A DNA stretch of 64,000 nt from Bacteroidota bacterium. GTDB taxonomy: Bacteria > Bacteroidota > Ignavibacteria > Ignavibacteriales > Melioribacteraceae. Below the pieces are notes generated by a model. The model was not told the DNA's origin and did not search any database. It was given only the letters and a program-made list of their open reading frames with translations. Shown piece after piece: positions 40,945 through 50,142 of this stretch (positions within the stretch are counted from its first letter, which is position 1; each line of letters opens with the position of its first letter). Where the stretch lies: contig JAHJUE010000022.1 of the NCBI GenBank assembly GCA_018829205.1, positions 1 to 64,000 of the forward strand. The letters are read 5' to 3'. The position numbers were made by a program, and so were the translations under genes.

Positions 40945-42429
40945 ATGAGCGTTAATATGTCCCAACTTGAAAAACATTTCCAAAAATATAGAAACAATAT
41001 AATTGGTATTGATCAGGAATTCAGTTCCCCTTACGGTACAAAAAAAATAATATATGCTGATTGGGTAGCAAGCGGAAGATTATATAAACCGATTGAAAAA
41101 AGAATGTGCGATATCTTCGGACCTTTTGTCGGCAACACTCATTCCGAATCAAGTGTTACCGGAACCTCAATGACGCATGCTTATCATAAAGCTCAGAAAA
41201 TTATAAAAGAACATGTAAACGCCGGTAAAGATGATGTTATTATAACAGCTGGATCAGGAATGACTGCCGTTGTAAATAAATTTCAAAGAATATTAGGATT
41301 AAAGGTTCCCGAGCAATTAAAAGATTTTATTCATATCCCGAAAGAAGAAAAACCTGTTGTTTTTATTACACATATGGAACACCATTCCAATCAAACTTCT
41401 TGGATTGAAACTATTGCCGACGTAGTAATTATTGAGCCGAATGATGAAGGATTAATAAACTTTGGTCATTTAAGTGATTTACTCAGCTTATACCAAAACC
41501 GGAAAGTGAAAATCGGTTCTTTTACGGCATGCTCAAACGTAACAGGAATTCAAACCGACTATTATAAATTTGCCAGAATGATGCATGAAAACGGAGGCTA
41601 TTGTTTTATCGACTTCGCAGCTTCGGCGCCATATGTAGATATAAATATGCATCCCGACGACCCGATGGAAAAACTGGACGCAATTTTCTTTTCACCTCAT
41701 AAATTTTTAGGCGGACCCGGAACTTCAGGCGTATTAATATTTGATTCAAAACTTTATCAAAGAAATGTACCCGATCATCCGGGCGGCGGTACAGTTGATT
41801 GGACAAATCCCTGGGGGCAGCATAAATTTATTTCAAATATCGAAGCCCGCGAAGACGGCGGCACTCCCGGTTTTCTTCAAACAATTAAAACTGCTTTATG
41901 TATTAAATTAAAAGATGAAATGGGTGTCGATAATATTATTAAACGTGAAGAGGAGCTTTTAGAAATTCTGTTCGAAGAACTAGAAAAAATTCCGGAAATT
42001 CATCTGCTTGCAAATAATGTTAAAGAAAGACTTGGAGTAATATCATTTTACGCCGAAGAAATACATTATAATTTATTTGTAAAATTATTAAACGACAGAT
42101 ACGGAATACAAGTACGCGGCGGGTGCTCATGCGCGGGAACTTACGGGCATTATCTTCTGCATGTAGATCCAACCCGCTCTCAGAGAATTACAAGTAAAAT
42201 TAATGACGGAGATCTTTCTGAAAAACCCGGGTGGGTAAGATTATCTCTGCACCCGACAATGACAAACGAAGAACTGCTTTTTATTCTAAACGCTATAAAA
42301 GAAGTGGCGGTAAATTATAAAGAGTGGATGAAGGATTACGAATACTCGAATAAGACAAACGAATATTATCATAAAAATTCATCCGAAATTAATTCGGTTT
42401 CAGCAGAACAATGGTTCGGCTTTTTATAA
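40945..42429 (+). CDS. Class V aminotransferase-fold PLP enzyme (cysteine desulfurase-like)
   Basis: This 494-residue PLP enzyme has YADWVASGRLYKPIEKRM and GSGMTAVVNKFQRILGL, FITHMEHHSNQTSW, ACSNVTGIQTDYYKFARMMHENGGYCFIDFAASAPYVDI, FFSPHKFLGGPGTSGVLIFD (PLP lysine in SPHK) and IQVRGGCSCAGTYGHYLL. The Cys-rich loop is in the place of the SufS/CsdA active Cys, so a desulfurase or selenocysteine-lyase activity is possible. No SufE or SufBCD genes are near. ATG 40945 is chosen because a promoter box ends only 5 bases before an earlier GTG (40906). Confidence 0.82.
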   Translation: MSVNMSQLEKHFQKYRNNIIGIDQEFSSPYGTKKIIYADWVASGRLYKPIEKRMCDIFGPFVGNTHSESSVTGTSMTHAYHKAQKIIKEHVNAGKDDVIITAGSGMTAVVNKFQRILGLKVPEQLKDFIHIPKEEKPVVFITHMEHHSNQTSWIETIADVVIIEPNDEGLINFGHLSDLLSLYQNRKVKIGSFTACSNVTGIQTDYYKFARMMHENGGYCFIDFAASAPYVDINMHPDDPMEKLDAIFFSPHKFLGGPGTSGVLIFDSKLYQRNVPDHPGGGTVDWTNPWGQHKFISNIEAREDGGTPGFLQTIKTALCIKLKDEMGVDNIIKREEELLEILFEELEKIPEIHLLANNVKERLGVISFYAEEIHYNLFVKLLNDRYGIQVRGGCSCAGTYGHYLLHVDPTRSQRITSKINDGDLSEKPGWVRLSLHPTMTNEELLFILNAIKEVAVNYKEWMKDYEYSNKTNEYYHKNSSEINSVSAEQWFGFL

Positions 42430-42492: not shown

Positions 42493-42524
42493 TTGACAAG
42501 TTTATATATAATTTTCTATCTTTG
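42493..42524 (+). promoter_or_regulatory. Bacteroidetes-type promoter of the trp operon
   Basis: TTG (42493-42495) then, 21 bases later, TATCTTTG (42517-42524), a full TAnnTTTG match. Transcription would begin near 42529-42532, that is at or just before the leader-peptide ATG at 42531. The leader message may therefore be leaderless, which fits the lack of a ribosome site there. Confidence 0.65.
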
Positions 42525-42530
42525 CCCTCA

Positions 42531-42608
42531 ATGAAAAACAACATAAAAACATATAGCTTTAATTTTATCTGGCTGTGGTGGAGTGCATCCTTACATTTAT
42601 CCAAGTGA
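42531..42608 (+). CDS. trpL: trp leader peptide (attenuator)
   Basis: A 25-codon frame starts at ATG 42531 and stops with TGA 42606-42608. Codons 14, 16 and 17 are TGG (42570-42572, 42576-42581), giving I-W-L-W-W-S; three Trp in 25 residues is far above chance. It lies directly upstream of an intrinsic terminator and trpE, the hallmark of ribosome-mediated attenuation. Its last three codons (42600-42608) double as the antiterminator arm. Too short for automatic gene finding. Stalled ribosomes at the Trp codons would leave this arm free. Confidence 0.85.
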   Translation: MKNNIKTYSFNFIWLWWSASLHLSK

Positions 42609-42658
42609 ATTGAAGCAATAGGTTTAAAAACTCTTACCCTTCTAAGGAATCACTTGGA
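42600..42658 (+). promoter_or_regulatory. trp antiterminator pairing
   Basis: TCCAAGTGA (42600-42608), the last two sense codons plus stop of trpL, is exactly complementary over 9 bases to TCACTTGGA (42650-42658), which is the loop and 3' arm of the terminator. Forming this pair breaks the terminator stem. A ribosome ending at the TGA would cover 42600-42608 and let the terminator form; one stalled on Trp codons 18-30 bases upstream would not. Confidence 0.75.
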
Positions 42659-42671
42659 AGGGTTTTTTTTT
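42636..42671 (+). terminator. trp attenuator terminator
   Basis: Arm 42636-42646 (ACCCTTCTAAG) pairs with 42653-42663 (CTTGGAAGGGT): 11 pairs including one G-U, loop of 6, followed by nine U residues (42663-42671). It lies 27 bases after the leader stop and 16 bases before trpE. Confidence 0.88.
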
Positions 42672-42687
42672 ATACGGAGATTAATAA

Positions 42688-44166
42688 ATGACTTTTGATG
42701 AGTTCAAATCCCTGTCGGAAAATTATAATGTAATTCCTGTTTACGAGAAGATTACAGCCGATCTTTTGACTCCTGTTTCGGCATATCTCAAAATCCGTAA
42801 ACCCGGTAATAGAAGCTTTTTGCTTGAATCAGTTGAAGGAATTGGCAGATTAGCGCGTTACTCTTTTATCGGGAAAGAACCGTCAAAAATTATTTCAAAC
42901 AACGGTATTAAGCTTACAATAAAAAACGAATCTGAAACATCAACATTTGAGTACAATATTTTTGATTATCTGCAATCCGAAATAAAATATTACAAACATC
43001 CTGTAATTGATGAACTTCCCGATTTCACCGGAGGTATTGTAGGGTTTCTTGGTTATGAAAATATATGCTTAATAGAAGATGTGCTGGAATTTGAGAATAA
43101 TAATTCTTTTGACACGCCCGATTCAATTTTCGGGATATACAATACTATAATTGCATTCGATCATTTTAAACACCAGATTGTATTAATCTCAAATGTTCAT
43201 ATTAACCAAACTTCTGATTTAAAAGCCTCCTATCAAAAAGCAAAACAAAATATAAAAATAATAAAGGATAAGCTGAGCAAACCTTTGGAGTATAAAAGTG
43301 ATTTTAGCTCAGTCAATGAAAATGGTAATGAAATTAACACGGAAGAATTCGGTAAGGCAATAGATAAAATTAAAAATAATATTTATGAAGGAGATGTATT
43401 CCAGCTTGTAATCTCAAAAAGATTCAGCGCTAAATTTAATGGTGACCTGTTAAATGTTTACAGAGCGCTTCGAATTATTAATCCCTCCCCTTATATGTAT
43501 TATATGGAACTAGAAAATGACTTCACTATTATTGGAACTTCACCCGAAGATTTATTAAAAGTAAAGCAGAATAAAGCAACCATCCTGCCAATCGCAGGCA
43601 CAAGAAGAAGAGGTAAAACCGCCGCTGAGGATAAAATTCTTGAAGAGGATTTATTAAACGACCCGAAAGAAATCGCTGAACATATGATGCTTGTTGATTT
43701 AGCCAGAAACGATTTAGGCAGAGTATGCGAGTACAATACGGTTAAACTATCCGAAGAAAAACAAATACACAAATTTTCTCACGTTATGCATATTGTTTCC
43801 AGAGTTGAGGGTAAATTGGTTGATGATAAAGACTGCATCGACGCACTAAAAGCAAGTTACCCTGCCGGTACTGTTACGGGTGCACCTAAAATTAAAGCAA
43901 TGGAGCTGATAAATAATTACGAAAACCAAAGACGTAATGTATATGCGGGAGCTATCGGTTATATTGATTTCAGCGGGAACTTGGATATGTGTATTGCTAT
44001 CCGAACTTTCTTCAGCAAAGGAAATAAAATATACTGGCAGGCAGGCGCCGGAATTGTTGCAGACAGTAAAGCGGAACTTGAGATAAAAGAAATTTATAAT
44101 AAATCCGCAGTATTAAATAGCGCATTAAAATACGCAGAGGTAATTGATGAAAATTTTGGTGATTGA
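42688..44166 (+). CDS. trpE: Anthranilate synthase component I
   Basis: TrpE makes anthranilate from chorismate with ammonia supplied by TrpG, the first step of tryptophan synthesis. This 492-residue protein shows the feedback-site block SFLLESVEG (LLES motif for Trp binding), FTGGIVGFLGYE, and in the chorismate-binding half NPSPYMYYMELE, IGTSPEDLLKV, PIAGTRRRGKT, GTVTGAPKIKAMELI and YAGAIGYIDFSGN. Length is normal. CGGAGA lies 7 bases before ATG. Control is by the attenuator just upstream and, by motif, also by Trp feedback. Confidence 0.97.
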   Translation: MTFDEFKSLSENYNVIPVYEKITADLLTPVSAYLKIRKPGNRSFLLESVEGIGRLARYSFIGKEPSKIISNNGIKLTIKNESETSTFEYNIFDYLQSEIKYYKHPVIDELPDFTGGIVGFLGYENICLIEDVLEFENNNSFDTPDSIFGIYNTIIAFDHFKHQIVLISNVHINQTSDLKASYQKAKQNIKIIKDKLSKPLEYKSDFSSVNENGNEINTEEFGKAIDKIKNNIYEGDVFQLVISKRFSAKFNGDLLNVYRALRIINPSPYMYYMELENDFTIIGTSPEDLLKVKQNKATILPIAGTRRRGKTAAEDKILEEDLLNDPKEIAEHMMLVDLARNDLGRVCEYNTVKLSEEKQIHKFSHVMHIVSRVEGKLVDDKDCIDALKASYPAGTVTGAPKIKAMELINNYENQRRNVYAGAIGYIDFSGNLDMCIAIRTFFSKGNKIYWQAGAGIVADSKAELEIKEIYNKSAVLNSALKYAEVIDENFGD

Positions 44167-46523: not shown

Positions 46524-47127
46524 AATTTGCGGTATAACAAATATCGAAGACGCTTTAATTTCTGCTGACCTCGGAGCCGATGCGCTTGGTTTTATTTTTT
46601 ATAATAAAAGTAAACGATTCATAGAATATAATAATGCCGTAGAGATAATTTCCTTACTCCCCGAAGGTATCAAAAAAATCGGAGTTTTTGTTAATGCCGG
46701 ACACGAACTAATAAACAAAGTATCAGCCGAAACCGGTCTTACGGAAGTTCAGCTGCACGGCGATGAAACACAGGAAGAAATAGATAAAATTTTACTGCCG
46801 GTCTGGAAAGCTTTCCGTGTAAATGAAGAGTTTGATTTTAATATTTTGAAGGAATATACGAATTGCAGTTACATGCTTGATACATATTCAGAAAATGAAG
46901 TCGGAGGAACCGGCAAATCTTTTAATTGGAATATTATTCCGCATGAAATTAGAAATAATATTATCCTGGCAGGCGGAATAACTGCCGCTAAAATTGAAGA
47001 AATTTATAAAAATATATCCCCTGCTTGGATTGATGTTTCATCATCCCTTGAAAGTTATCCGGGGAAAAAGGATAAAACTAAACTAACCGAATTTTTTAAC
47101 AGCATAAATAAATTGAGGAATGGGTAA
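46513..47127 (+). CDS. trpF: Phosphoribosylanthranilate isomerase
   Basis: TrpF is an Amadori isomerase, here 204 residues. Blocks are VKICGITNIEDALISADLGADALGFIFYNKSKRFI, VQLHGDE, YMLDTYSENEVGGTGKSFNW and LAGGITAAKI, with the catalytic Cys in KICG and Asp in LDTY. It starts with GTG 46513, overlapping trpC by 11 bases. Confidence 0.96.
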   Translation: MKVKICGITNIEDALISADLGADALGFIFYNKSKRFIEYNNAVEIISLLPEGIKKIGVFVNAGHELINKVSAETGLTEVQLHGDETQEEIDKILLPVWKAFRVNEEFDFNILKEYTNCSYMLDTYSENEVGGTGKSFNWNIIPHEIRNNIILAGGITAAKIEEIYKNISPAWIDVSSSLESYPGKKDKTKLTEFFNSINKLRNG

Positions 47128-48143
47128 TGCTTATACTTATGGCTTTAAATACACCTAAAGAACATATTGATAAAGTAAAAGAAAAAATAATATCAATGCA
47201 ATGTACGCCTCACGTAATACCGGGCGATTCAAAATTAGCTATTGGAATTACAGGACCGACTGAATCATTAAAAAGAGTTGATTTTCAGGTTATGCCTTCC
47301 GTTGAAGAAGTCGTGCGTGTTACTAAAAAGTTTAAACTTGTAAGCCGCATGATGAAATCCGACGATACTATTATTAATATCGGGAATCATAAAATCGGCG
47401 GCAAAGAATTATTGATTATCGCCGGTCCATGCGCGGTAGAAAACCGCAATCAGATTTTCGAAATTGCGGGACAATTAAAAGAAATGGGAATAAATTTTTT
47501 AAGAGCCGGCGCGTACAAACCGAGATCCAGTCCTTATTCGTTCCAGGGATTAAAAGAAAAAGGATTACAGATTTTATCGGATGTAAAAAAAGAGTTTGAT
47601 ATGCATATTGTCACCGAGGCTTTAAATCAATCTACTGTAGCTGCTGTTGCCGAAGTAGCTGATATAATTCAACTTGGAGCGAGAAACATGCAAAACTTTG
47701 CTCTACTTGAAGAGGTAGGAAAAACACAAAAACCTGTTTTATTAAAAAGAGGTCTTTCCGCTACCGTTGAAGATTTATTATTAAGCGCTGAATATATTGT
47801 CGCCCAGAATAATTACAACGTAATTTTATGCGAACGCGGTATAAGAACATTTGAAACTTCAACACGAAATACGCTGGACTTAAACGCGGTTCCTGTTATA
47901 AAAAAGAATTCCCATCTTCCGATTATTGTTGATCCTTCACACGGTATCGGAATTGGAGAAAAGGTGCCTGCAATGGCAATGGCCTCAATTGCCGCGGGCG
48001 CCGACGGATTAATTATTGAAGTGCATAGTCACCCTGATAAAGCGTTATCAGACGGATATCAGTCTTTGGATCCGCAAACATTCGAAAAAACATTAAATAA
48101 AATAAGACAACTGGCTGAAATTGTTGACAGGACATTAGCATGA
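47127..48143 (+). CDS. aroF: DAHP synthase, type I-beta with N-terminal ferredoxin-like domain
   Basis: This 338-residue enzyme makes 3-deoxy-D-arabino-heptulosonate 7-phosphate, the first step of the shikimate route. Residues 1-70 form an ACT/ferredoxin-like regulatory domain ([23 protein letters not shown]), then the catalytic barrel follows with [68 protein letters not shown]. The layout is that of the Thermotoga-type enzyme, in which this domain binds Tyr or Phe. It sits inside the trp operon, so it is co-regulated with Trp supply. TAATG overlap with trpF. Confidence 0.94.
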
Positions 48144-49354: not shown

Positions 49355-50142
49355 TGTCAAAAATTAAAGAACATATTGAGAGTTTAAATAATAGCGGAAG
49401 AAAAGCTTTATCAGTTTTTTTAACCGCGGGATTTCCTGATAATAATAAATTTTTTGATACGGCAAGAATAATTTTAGATAACGGCGCCGATATTCTTGAA
49501 ATCGGTATTCCTTTCAGCGACCCGCTTGCGGACGGTCCAGTGATTCAGCAGTCATCTCAAATTGCATTGCAAAACGGAATAACATTGGAAAAGTCAATTA
49601 TAGCGGCAGGTAAATTGACAAAAGAATTTGATAAGCCGATAATTCTGATGGGCTACGCAAATCCAATAATATCTTTCGGAAAAGAGAATTTCGTTAAAGC
49701 GGCTGTAGAAAATAAAATATGCGGCGTAATTATTCCGGATATTCCAATTGAAGAATATGATGATTTTTTTGAAAACAAATTTGCAGGCCTCGATACAATT
49801 TTACTGACAACTCCAACTTCTTCAGAAGAAAGAATCAAAAGCATTGATTTGAAAAGCAGCGGATTTGTTTATTGTGTAAGTGTAACGGGAACAACAGGTA
49901 TCCGTTACGATTTTTCAGATGATACTTTAATAAATCTGGAAACTACTTATAGAAATATTATCAAAAATAAAATGATGATTGGGTTCGGTATTTCAAAACC
50001 GGAAGACATAAAAACATTTTCACCTTATTGTGACGGAGTAATTGTAGGAAGCGCTGTTATAAAAAGTATTATGAATGACAATAATAAATTTGAAAAGACA
50101 AAGGAATTAATTAATTCTCTTAGCAAAGCATGTAATAATTAA
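49354..50142 (+). CDS. trpA: Tryptophan synthase alpha chain
   Basis: TrpA cleaves indole-3-glycerol phosphate. This 262-residue TIM barrel has FLTAGFPDNN, GADILEIGIPFSDPLADGPVIQQSS (catalytic Glu and Asp), IILMGYANPIISFG, GVIIPDIPIEE, LLTTPTSSEERI and YCVSVTGTTG. The start overlaps the trpB stop by one base (TAATG). It is the last gene of the operon; its stop lies 4 bases from the hisIE stop on the other strand and no terminator is visible between them. Confidence 0.96.
   Translation: MSKIKEHIESLNNSGRKALSVFLTAGFPDNNKFFDTARIILDNGADILEIGIPFSDPLADGPVIQQSSQIALQNGITLEKSIIAAGKLTKEFDKPIILMGYANPIISFGKENFVKAAVENKICGVIIPDIPIEEYDDFFENKFAGLDTILLTTPTSSEERIKSIDLKSSGFVYCVSVTGTTGIRYDFSDDTLINLETTYRNIIKNKMMIGFGISKPEDIKTFSPYCDGVIVGSAVIKSIMNDNNKFEKTKELINSLSKACNN

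Follow-up and report, generated by a model that had tools for sequence, protein, structure and literature searches.

In the textbook form of transcription attenuation, the antiterminator can form while the second half of the terminator is still to be synthesised, and in the Yanofsky scheme of Escherichia coli trpL, where the trp leader has 14 codons, the antiterminator pairs with the 5' arm of the terminator (segment 3). Leaderless Trp leaders located before trpE and acting through terminator attenuation have been described in Sinorhizobium meliloti (trpL, PMC7298713) and in Streptomyces lividans (trpL1, PMC8079986). For the ilvB-II motif of Corynebacterium, a putative antiterminator has been described that involves the 'right shoulder' of the terminator, its 3' side (PMC10272879). 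Moreover, a 2010 survey states that leader-peptide systems had to its authors' knowledge been found previously only in Proteobacteria and Actinobacteria, and it adds the Firmicutes (PMC2965389). Our literature search for trp or his leader-peptide attenuation in Ignavibacteria, Bacteroidetes and Chlorobi found no description, although another survey of 2010, a comparative one by Lopatovskaya and colleagues, could include this group.

The locus reported here lies in the window, i.e. the whole stretch of 64,000 nucleotides of DNA that was analysed, which belongs to a host assembly of 4.59 Mb in 39 contigs. It is similar to E. coli trpL in the Trp codons in a short leader, the presumed stalling, the U-tract terminator, the alternative pairing by the end of the leader and the putative 1:2 protector. 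The main difference from the E. coli scheme is that the 5' arm is captured there, whereas the loop and the 3' arm (segment 4) are captured here; in addition, the start is predicted to be leaderless or nearly so, and the leaders have 20–32 codons instead of 14. With S. meliloti trpL and S. lividans trpL1 the locus shares a leaderless Trp leader (predicted here) and a terminator, but those systems belong to other phyla. With the ilvB-II motif it shares a leader ORF and a 3'-side antiterminator (putative in ilvB-II), but ilvB-II is from another phylum, senses Ile/Leu/Val and involves the lower stem and the P1 loop region, whereas the loop and the upper stem are involved here. The 3'-side topology thus has a described precedent in Corynebacterium ilvB-II.

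The trp locus and its leader peptide

The leader precedes an eight-gene operon in the order trpE-trpG-trpD-trpC-trpF-DAHP synthase-trpB-trpA, which ends at 50142. Its features are as follows.

42493..42498 (+), -35-like TTGACA, by motif match
42517..42524 (+), TATCTTTG, TAnnTTTG-type -10/-7 element, 18 nt after TTGACA
42531..42608 (+), leader ORF MKNNIKTYSFNFIWLWWSASLHLSK with its stop, 25 codons, by ORF and alignment
42549..42564 (+), segment 1, the 5' strand of P1, leader codons 7–12, upstream of the Trp codons, by duplex scan
42570-42572, 42576-42578 and 42579-42581 (+), Trp codons TGG 14, 16 and 17, by leader translation
42600..42608 (+), segment 2, antiterminator 5' arm UCCAAGUGA, the final two codons and the stop, by duplex energies and covariation
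42608..42623 (+), 3' strand of P1, partner of 42549-42564 with 2 mismatches, by duplex scan
42636..42646 (+), segment 3, terminator 5' arm, by hairpin search and alignment
42650..42658 (+), antiterminator 3' arm UCACUUGGA, the final 3 nt of the terminator loop and the initial 6 nt of its 3' arm, by duplex energies and covariation
42653..42663 (+), segment 4, terminator 3' arm, by hairpin search and alignment
42663..42671 (+), T9 tract, whose first T is also paired in the stem, by sequence
42676..42679 (+), GGAG, Shine-Dalgarno-like, before trpE, by sequence
42688..44166 (+), trpE, operon gene 1, TIGR00564 above cut-off

The terminator is a hairpin of 11 bp with a 6-nt loop, and 42600-42608 and 42650-42658 form a perfect pairing of 9 bp. 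The original prediction had described a 25-codon leader with Trp at codons 14, 16 and 17, a terminator and a competing 9-bp pairing before trpE, and all of these were found as it stated. A Shine-Dalgarno-like motif precedes trpE in 16 of 30 loci compared. A DAHP synthase gene is situated inside the operon, between trpF and trpB (47127-48143, +).

For the comparison, 38 genomes including the window's own were searched; the 30 with a full-length TrpE formed the comparison set and the other 8 were left out. A leader ORF with at least 2 Trp codons is present upstream of trpE in all the 30 genomes, its length being 20–32 codons with starts chosen by the analyst, while the peptides are highly variable outside the Trp cluster. 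Under a strict rule (at least 3 Trp within 8 residues, in an ATG ORF of 10 to 50 residues), 28 of the 30 trp upstream regions pass vs none of 29 his (hisG) and none of 23 met (metY) regions; under the rule of at least 2 Trp, the counts are 30/30, 1/29 and 1/23, respectively.

Promoter-like elements were scored as TTGACA (at least 4 of 6) followed by TAnnTTTG (at least 5 of 6), the latter being the Bacteroidota-type promoter consensus. They were found at 22 of 30 loci vs 55 of 300 shuffled sequences, with no good match at 8 of 30. Among the 22 loci that have a promoter match, the G of the -10 element precedes the ATG by 4–13 nt in 21 and by 22 nt in L017; in the window, the G of TATCTTTG is 6 nt before the leader ATG. 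No Shine-Dalgarno-like motif occurs in the gap between the -10 element and the ATG in any of the 30 loci. The leader is likely to be translated leaderless or nearly so, from a putative transcription start close to its ATG.

Covariation of the terminator and the antiterminator

Both helices were assessed in an alignment (A1) of the 30 leaders, with six slid versions as controls, in which the partner was moved by 1 to 3 columns. The terminator is paired in 96.6% of cells vs 41–67% in the slid versions, and the antiterminator in 80.2% vs 32–45%, with 23 cells changed on both sides. Since related sequences inflate such cell counts, the changes were mapped by parsimony on the TrpE tree. Paired-to-paired double changes were found on 15 branches for the antiterminator (8 pairs) and likewise on 15 branches for the terminator (11 pairs), while the slid controls gave 0, 1, 2, 0, 0 and 1 for the former and 0, 0, 0, 2, 0 and 0 for the latter; double changes losing the pair occurred on 4 antiterminator branches and on no terminator branch. 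Furthermore, positions that serve in both helices vary in concert, with A-U-A in 17 and G-C-G in 4 of 30 leaders at columns 108/181/169, and with C-G-U or C-G-C in 18, U-A-U in 5 and A-U-A in 2 of 30 at columns 107/182/168.

Taken by itself, the 9-bp pairing of the window is moderately beyond chance, being matched by at most 1 of 400 or by 3 of 400 shuffled tails in two tests; the antiterminator pairing is beyond chance because it is conserved across the 30 genomes. RNAalifold recovered the terminator from the 30-leader alignment and the antiterminator was absent from its result, so the latter was tested as a named structure. An ungapped scan for the antiterminator proved too narrow (5 bp in L006, L007, L010, L024 and L029), and duplex energies were used instead. 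Rfam 15 gave no match at the gathering score in the window or in the trp loci L001, L005, L019, L029 and L123.

Since the Trp leader is conserved and specific to trp, and since both helices show compensatory changes, the locus is very probably a ribosome-mediated trp attenuator of an Ignavibacteria bacterium, for which we infer the direction of regulation. This agrees with the original prediction of ribosome-mediated Trp attenuation, which is backed by the Trp codons kept in 30/30 and by the compensating changes in both pairings; the check that it had proposed, a search for TGG runs and compensating changes in relatives, revealed both among the 30 genomes.

Stop codon, spacing and the segment 1:2 pairing

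The original prediction also saw in this locus a shorter two-state switch, in which the leader stop codon is a defining piece of the antiterminator arm. The leader in the window fits such a switch, its stop being the last triplet of the 9-bp arm, and stop and arm overlap in 15 of the 30 leaders; but the stop lies upstream of the arm in 6 and downstream in 9. By contrast, when the A site is at the last Trp codon of the cluster, the distance from the ribosome edge to the arm is 9–14 nt in every one of the 30 leaders. What these leaders conserve is the Trp-to-arm spacing, the stop codon being incidental. A ribosome at the stop covers at least 4 nt of the arm in 27 of 30 leaders; in L006, L029 and L030, the stop is far upstream, a ribosome there covers fewer than 4 nt, and the antiterminator still wins.

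A protector is what the two-state switch would lack, and a candidate pairing of this type is present. In 17 of 30 leaders (p<=0.05; Fisher 4e-16), including that of the window (p 0.015), the codons preceding the Trp run form a duplex with the tail or post-stop region that is stronger than expected by chance, and 60% of the cells of this pairing are paired vs 35–47% in the slid versions. For the switch without protector it counts that this 1:2 pairing is non-significant in 13 of 30, and that its 11 pairs with double changes are equalled by one of the six slid controls (5–11). In 29 of 30 leaders, the best 1:2 duplex and the antiterminator arm share at least 1 nt, thus this pairing could act as a protector like that of E. 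coli; it is less well supported than the terminator and the antiterminator. The P1 scan with a narrower 3' window was superseded by one with a wider window. A conserved pseudoknot of P1 and the antiterminator was considered as well and rejected, as the overlap of the best duplexes in 29 of 30 means that they compete. Altogether, the switch is probably not two-state, and we regard the reading with the stop codon as the defining piece and no protector as rather unlikely.

The arm captured by the antiterminator

The position originally proposed for the antiterminator, on the terminator loop and 3' arm, is correct, but what sets it apart from E. coli was not pointed out, namely that the loop and 3' arm are the target instead of the 5' arm. 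In tests with 400 shuffles, 16 of 30 trp leaders showed pairing of the tail with the loop and 3' arm at p<=0.05 (Fisher 7e-17), and it was individually non-significant in 14 of 30 (16 of 30 in the first pairing test), while pairing of the tail with the 5' arm and loop reached p<=0.05 in 2 of 30 (L030 and L032; Fisher 0.2).

The alternative that this is a canonical attenuator of the E. coli type, whose antiterminator sequesters the terminator 5' arm, has in its favour that the overall parts are identical and that most of the his and met attenuators of these genomes use this design. In an arm test with a similar script, 300 shuffles and slightly different tail limits, the his tails paired with the 5' arm in 19 of 27 (Fisher 2e-18) and with the 3' arm in 7 of 27 (Fisher 6e-5), and the met tails in 9 of 15 and 1 of 15, respectively; the his count was made without L220, where no terminator was found, and L196 is without a His leader. 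The tails of these his and met attenuators pair with the terminator too, but mainly with its 5' arm. The met leader of the window's own genome, L165, showed significant tail pairing with neither arm (p 0.50 and 0.63). Moreover, when ten trp leaders not belonging to the order were examined (six from a single genus, one from outside the class), 7 showed pairing with the 5' arm and 4 with the 3' arm. Against the canonical reading, however, the tail pairs with the 5' arm not significantly better than shuffled in 28 of the 30 trp leaders of the order, and in the window the best duplex with the 5' arm has -4.0 kcal/mol (p 0.845) vs -14.3 kcal/mol with the loop and 3' arm. A 5'-arm mechanism at this locus is hence very unlikely.

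The capture of the loop and 3' arm, not of the 5' arm, is a true departure from the E. coli scheme, and this 3'-arm design seems to be a peculiarity of trp leaders in the window's order. While the textbook antiterminator can form early, the one described here covaries with the second half of the terminator across the 30 genomes. On balance, we lean slightly towards the view that a loop-toehold antiterminator has evolved in this order, in which the tail would be a decoy of the upper terminator 5' arm and would capture the loop and upper 3' arm over the U tract. It would be a purely kinetic switch replacing the 5'-arm design, on which most his and met attenuators in these genomes and several trp attenuators elsewhere in the phylum rely.

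Folding states and proposed mechanism

The states of the leader were computed as equilibrium snapshots with assumed footprints, i.e. a ribosome whose front reaches 12 nt beyond the first base of the A site and a polymerase at the eighth U hiding 10, 12 or 14 nt. With the ribosome stalled at the last Trp codon, the antiterminator is favoured over the terminator in 25, 27 and 28 of 30 leaders (10, 12 and 14 nt hidden, respectively) vs 3, 4 and 5 of 30 with the ribosome at the stop, so in these models the ribosome position would decide which helix forms. The stalled-state exceptions are L025 and L015, the latter forming neither helix, at 10, 12 and 14 nt, L018 at 10 and 12 nt, and L009 and L026 at 10 nt. 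With no ribosome, the antiterminator is favoured in 5, 10 and 13 of 30, the balance being for the terminator at 10 nt hidden, mildly so at 12 nt, and for neither structure at 14 nt. In all three states, the terminator has a low mean probability when 14 nt are hidden (0.17 with no ribosome, 0.05 stalled and 0.22 at the stop). When the tail was shuffled, the terminator became more probable in the stalled state, its mean probability rising from 0.16 to 0.81 at 10 nt and from 0.07 to 0.43 at 12 nt. When the hairpin is fully exposed, the terminator wins at equilibrium in 29 of 30 leaders, even behind a stalled ribosome, and therefore the switch would have to be kinetic. By arithmetic with 10–14 nt hidden, 42650-42658 exits the polymerase at about the time of the T-tract crossing, before the CCC/GGG base of the hairpin.

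We assume the following course of events. The polymerase would start at the leader AUG or a few bases before it. With ample Trp-tRNA, the ribosome would reach the stop codon and cover segment 2 (42600-42608), the terminator would form, and transcription would end in the U tract. With scarce Trp-tRNA, the ribosome would presumably stall at codons 14–17, with its front edge about 10 nt short of segment 2; the free segment 2 could then pair with 42650-42658 when the latter exits the polymerase and the GC-rich base of the hairpin is still hidden, if the kinetics are as supposed. The antiterminator would prevent closure of the hairpin during the U-tract crossing, and trpE would be transcribed. In a leader without a ribosome, segment 1 (codons 7–12) may pair with the tail and post-stop region, and termination would be favoured.

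Other attenuators in these genomes and in the phylum

A covariance model (R1) gave 44 matches, of which 20 were read, with genes named by eye and three checked by family. These 20 comprise nine leaders located before trpE, one before a trpB-like gene, five Met leaders, three Phe/Tyr leaders before DAHP synthase and two matches that look false. A further 15 matches are in genomes of the 30. Outside the class there were two matches, one before trpE and one that looks false, and the same-family genomes G173, G206 and G210 had no R1 match. The R1 tallies of 39/197 and 26/296 genomes are of mixed leader types and are not counts of trp attenuators.

The window carries a His attenuator on the minus strand, consisting of the leader MKLSAVNILVHHHHPISYIFSAGK with its stop (57107-57033), a terminator (57008-56983) and hisG from 56967 or 56961; here the leader tail has the terminator 5' arm as its partner (p 0.003). 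A leader with a His run is present at 28 of 29 hisG loci, including that of the window's own genome. Elsewhere in this genome, at L165 (G000:C39, upstream of 66924), there is a Met-rich leader, MKIQIKNTSGKLNMAMCMCCMCNIGPR with its stop, with its own terminator, followed by a SAM-I riboswitch and then by an O-acetylhomoserine sulfhydrylase gene (TIGR01326). In 23 such loci, classified partly by eye, 7 have a Met leader plus SAM-I, 3 have two serial Met leaders, 2 have a Met leader alone, 10 have SAM-I alone and 1 has SAM-I/IV. Our literature search for a tandem of Met leader and SAM-I found none; in Streptomyces lividans, metNIQ is reported to be preceded by a Met leader (PMC8079986).

In addition, a leader with a WWW run precedes a TrpB-like gene (NF009057) in another genome of the class (L155), and Phe/Tyr-rich leaders precede DAHP synthase genes at L156, L161 and L162, of which L161 was family-checked and the leader of L156 was read by eye. 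Outside the class in the same phylum, L222 (G298) has a WWW leader before a gene that by eye is trpE-like, with 5'-arm pairing.

Discussion

It could also be assumed that the leader RNA or peptide acts in trans, as do rnTrpL and peTrpL of Sinorhizobium meliloti (PMC7298713), and that part of the pairing is preserved for this reason. Termination would release an RNA of roughly 140 nt beginning at or near the AUG; however, the cis pairings account for the conservation seen, and the leader peptides vary much outside the Trp cluster, hence we consider an additional trans action highly improbable. The chance that the hairpin is just the terminator of the upstream gene, a 507-codon ORF on the same strand ending at 42429, followed by an accidental Trp-rich ORF, is practically nil, since a promoter-like element lies between the end of this ORF and the leader, the Trp leader is found in 30/30 genomes with a dense Trp run in 0/52 control regions, and both helices covary, a conservation that already refutes the chance reading.

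The reading of the locus as a ribosome-mediated trp attenuator documents leader-peptide attenuation for the Ignavibacteria, for which the literature searched gave no prior description. As a DAHP synthase gene is part of the trp operon, the attenuator would also control the entry into the shikimate pathway. Furthermore, the trp attenuator with 3'-arm capture beside his and met attenuators with 5'-arm capture makes up a natural design pair in one cell for the question of how late antiterminators can form.
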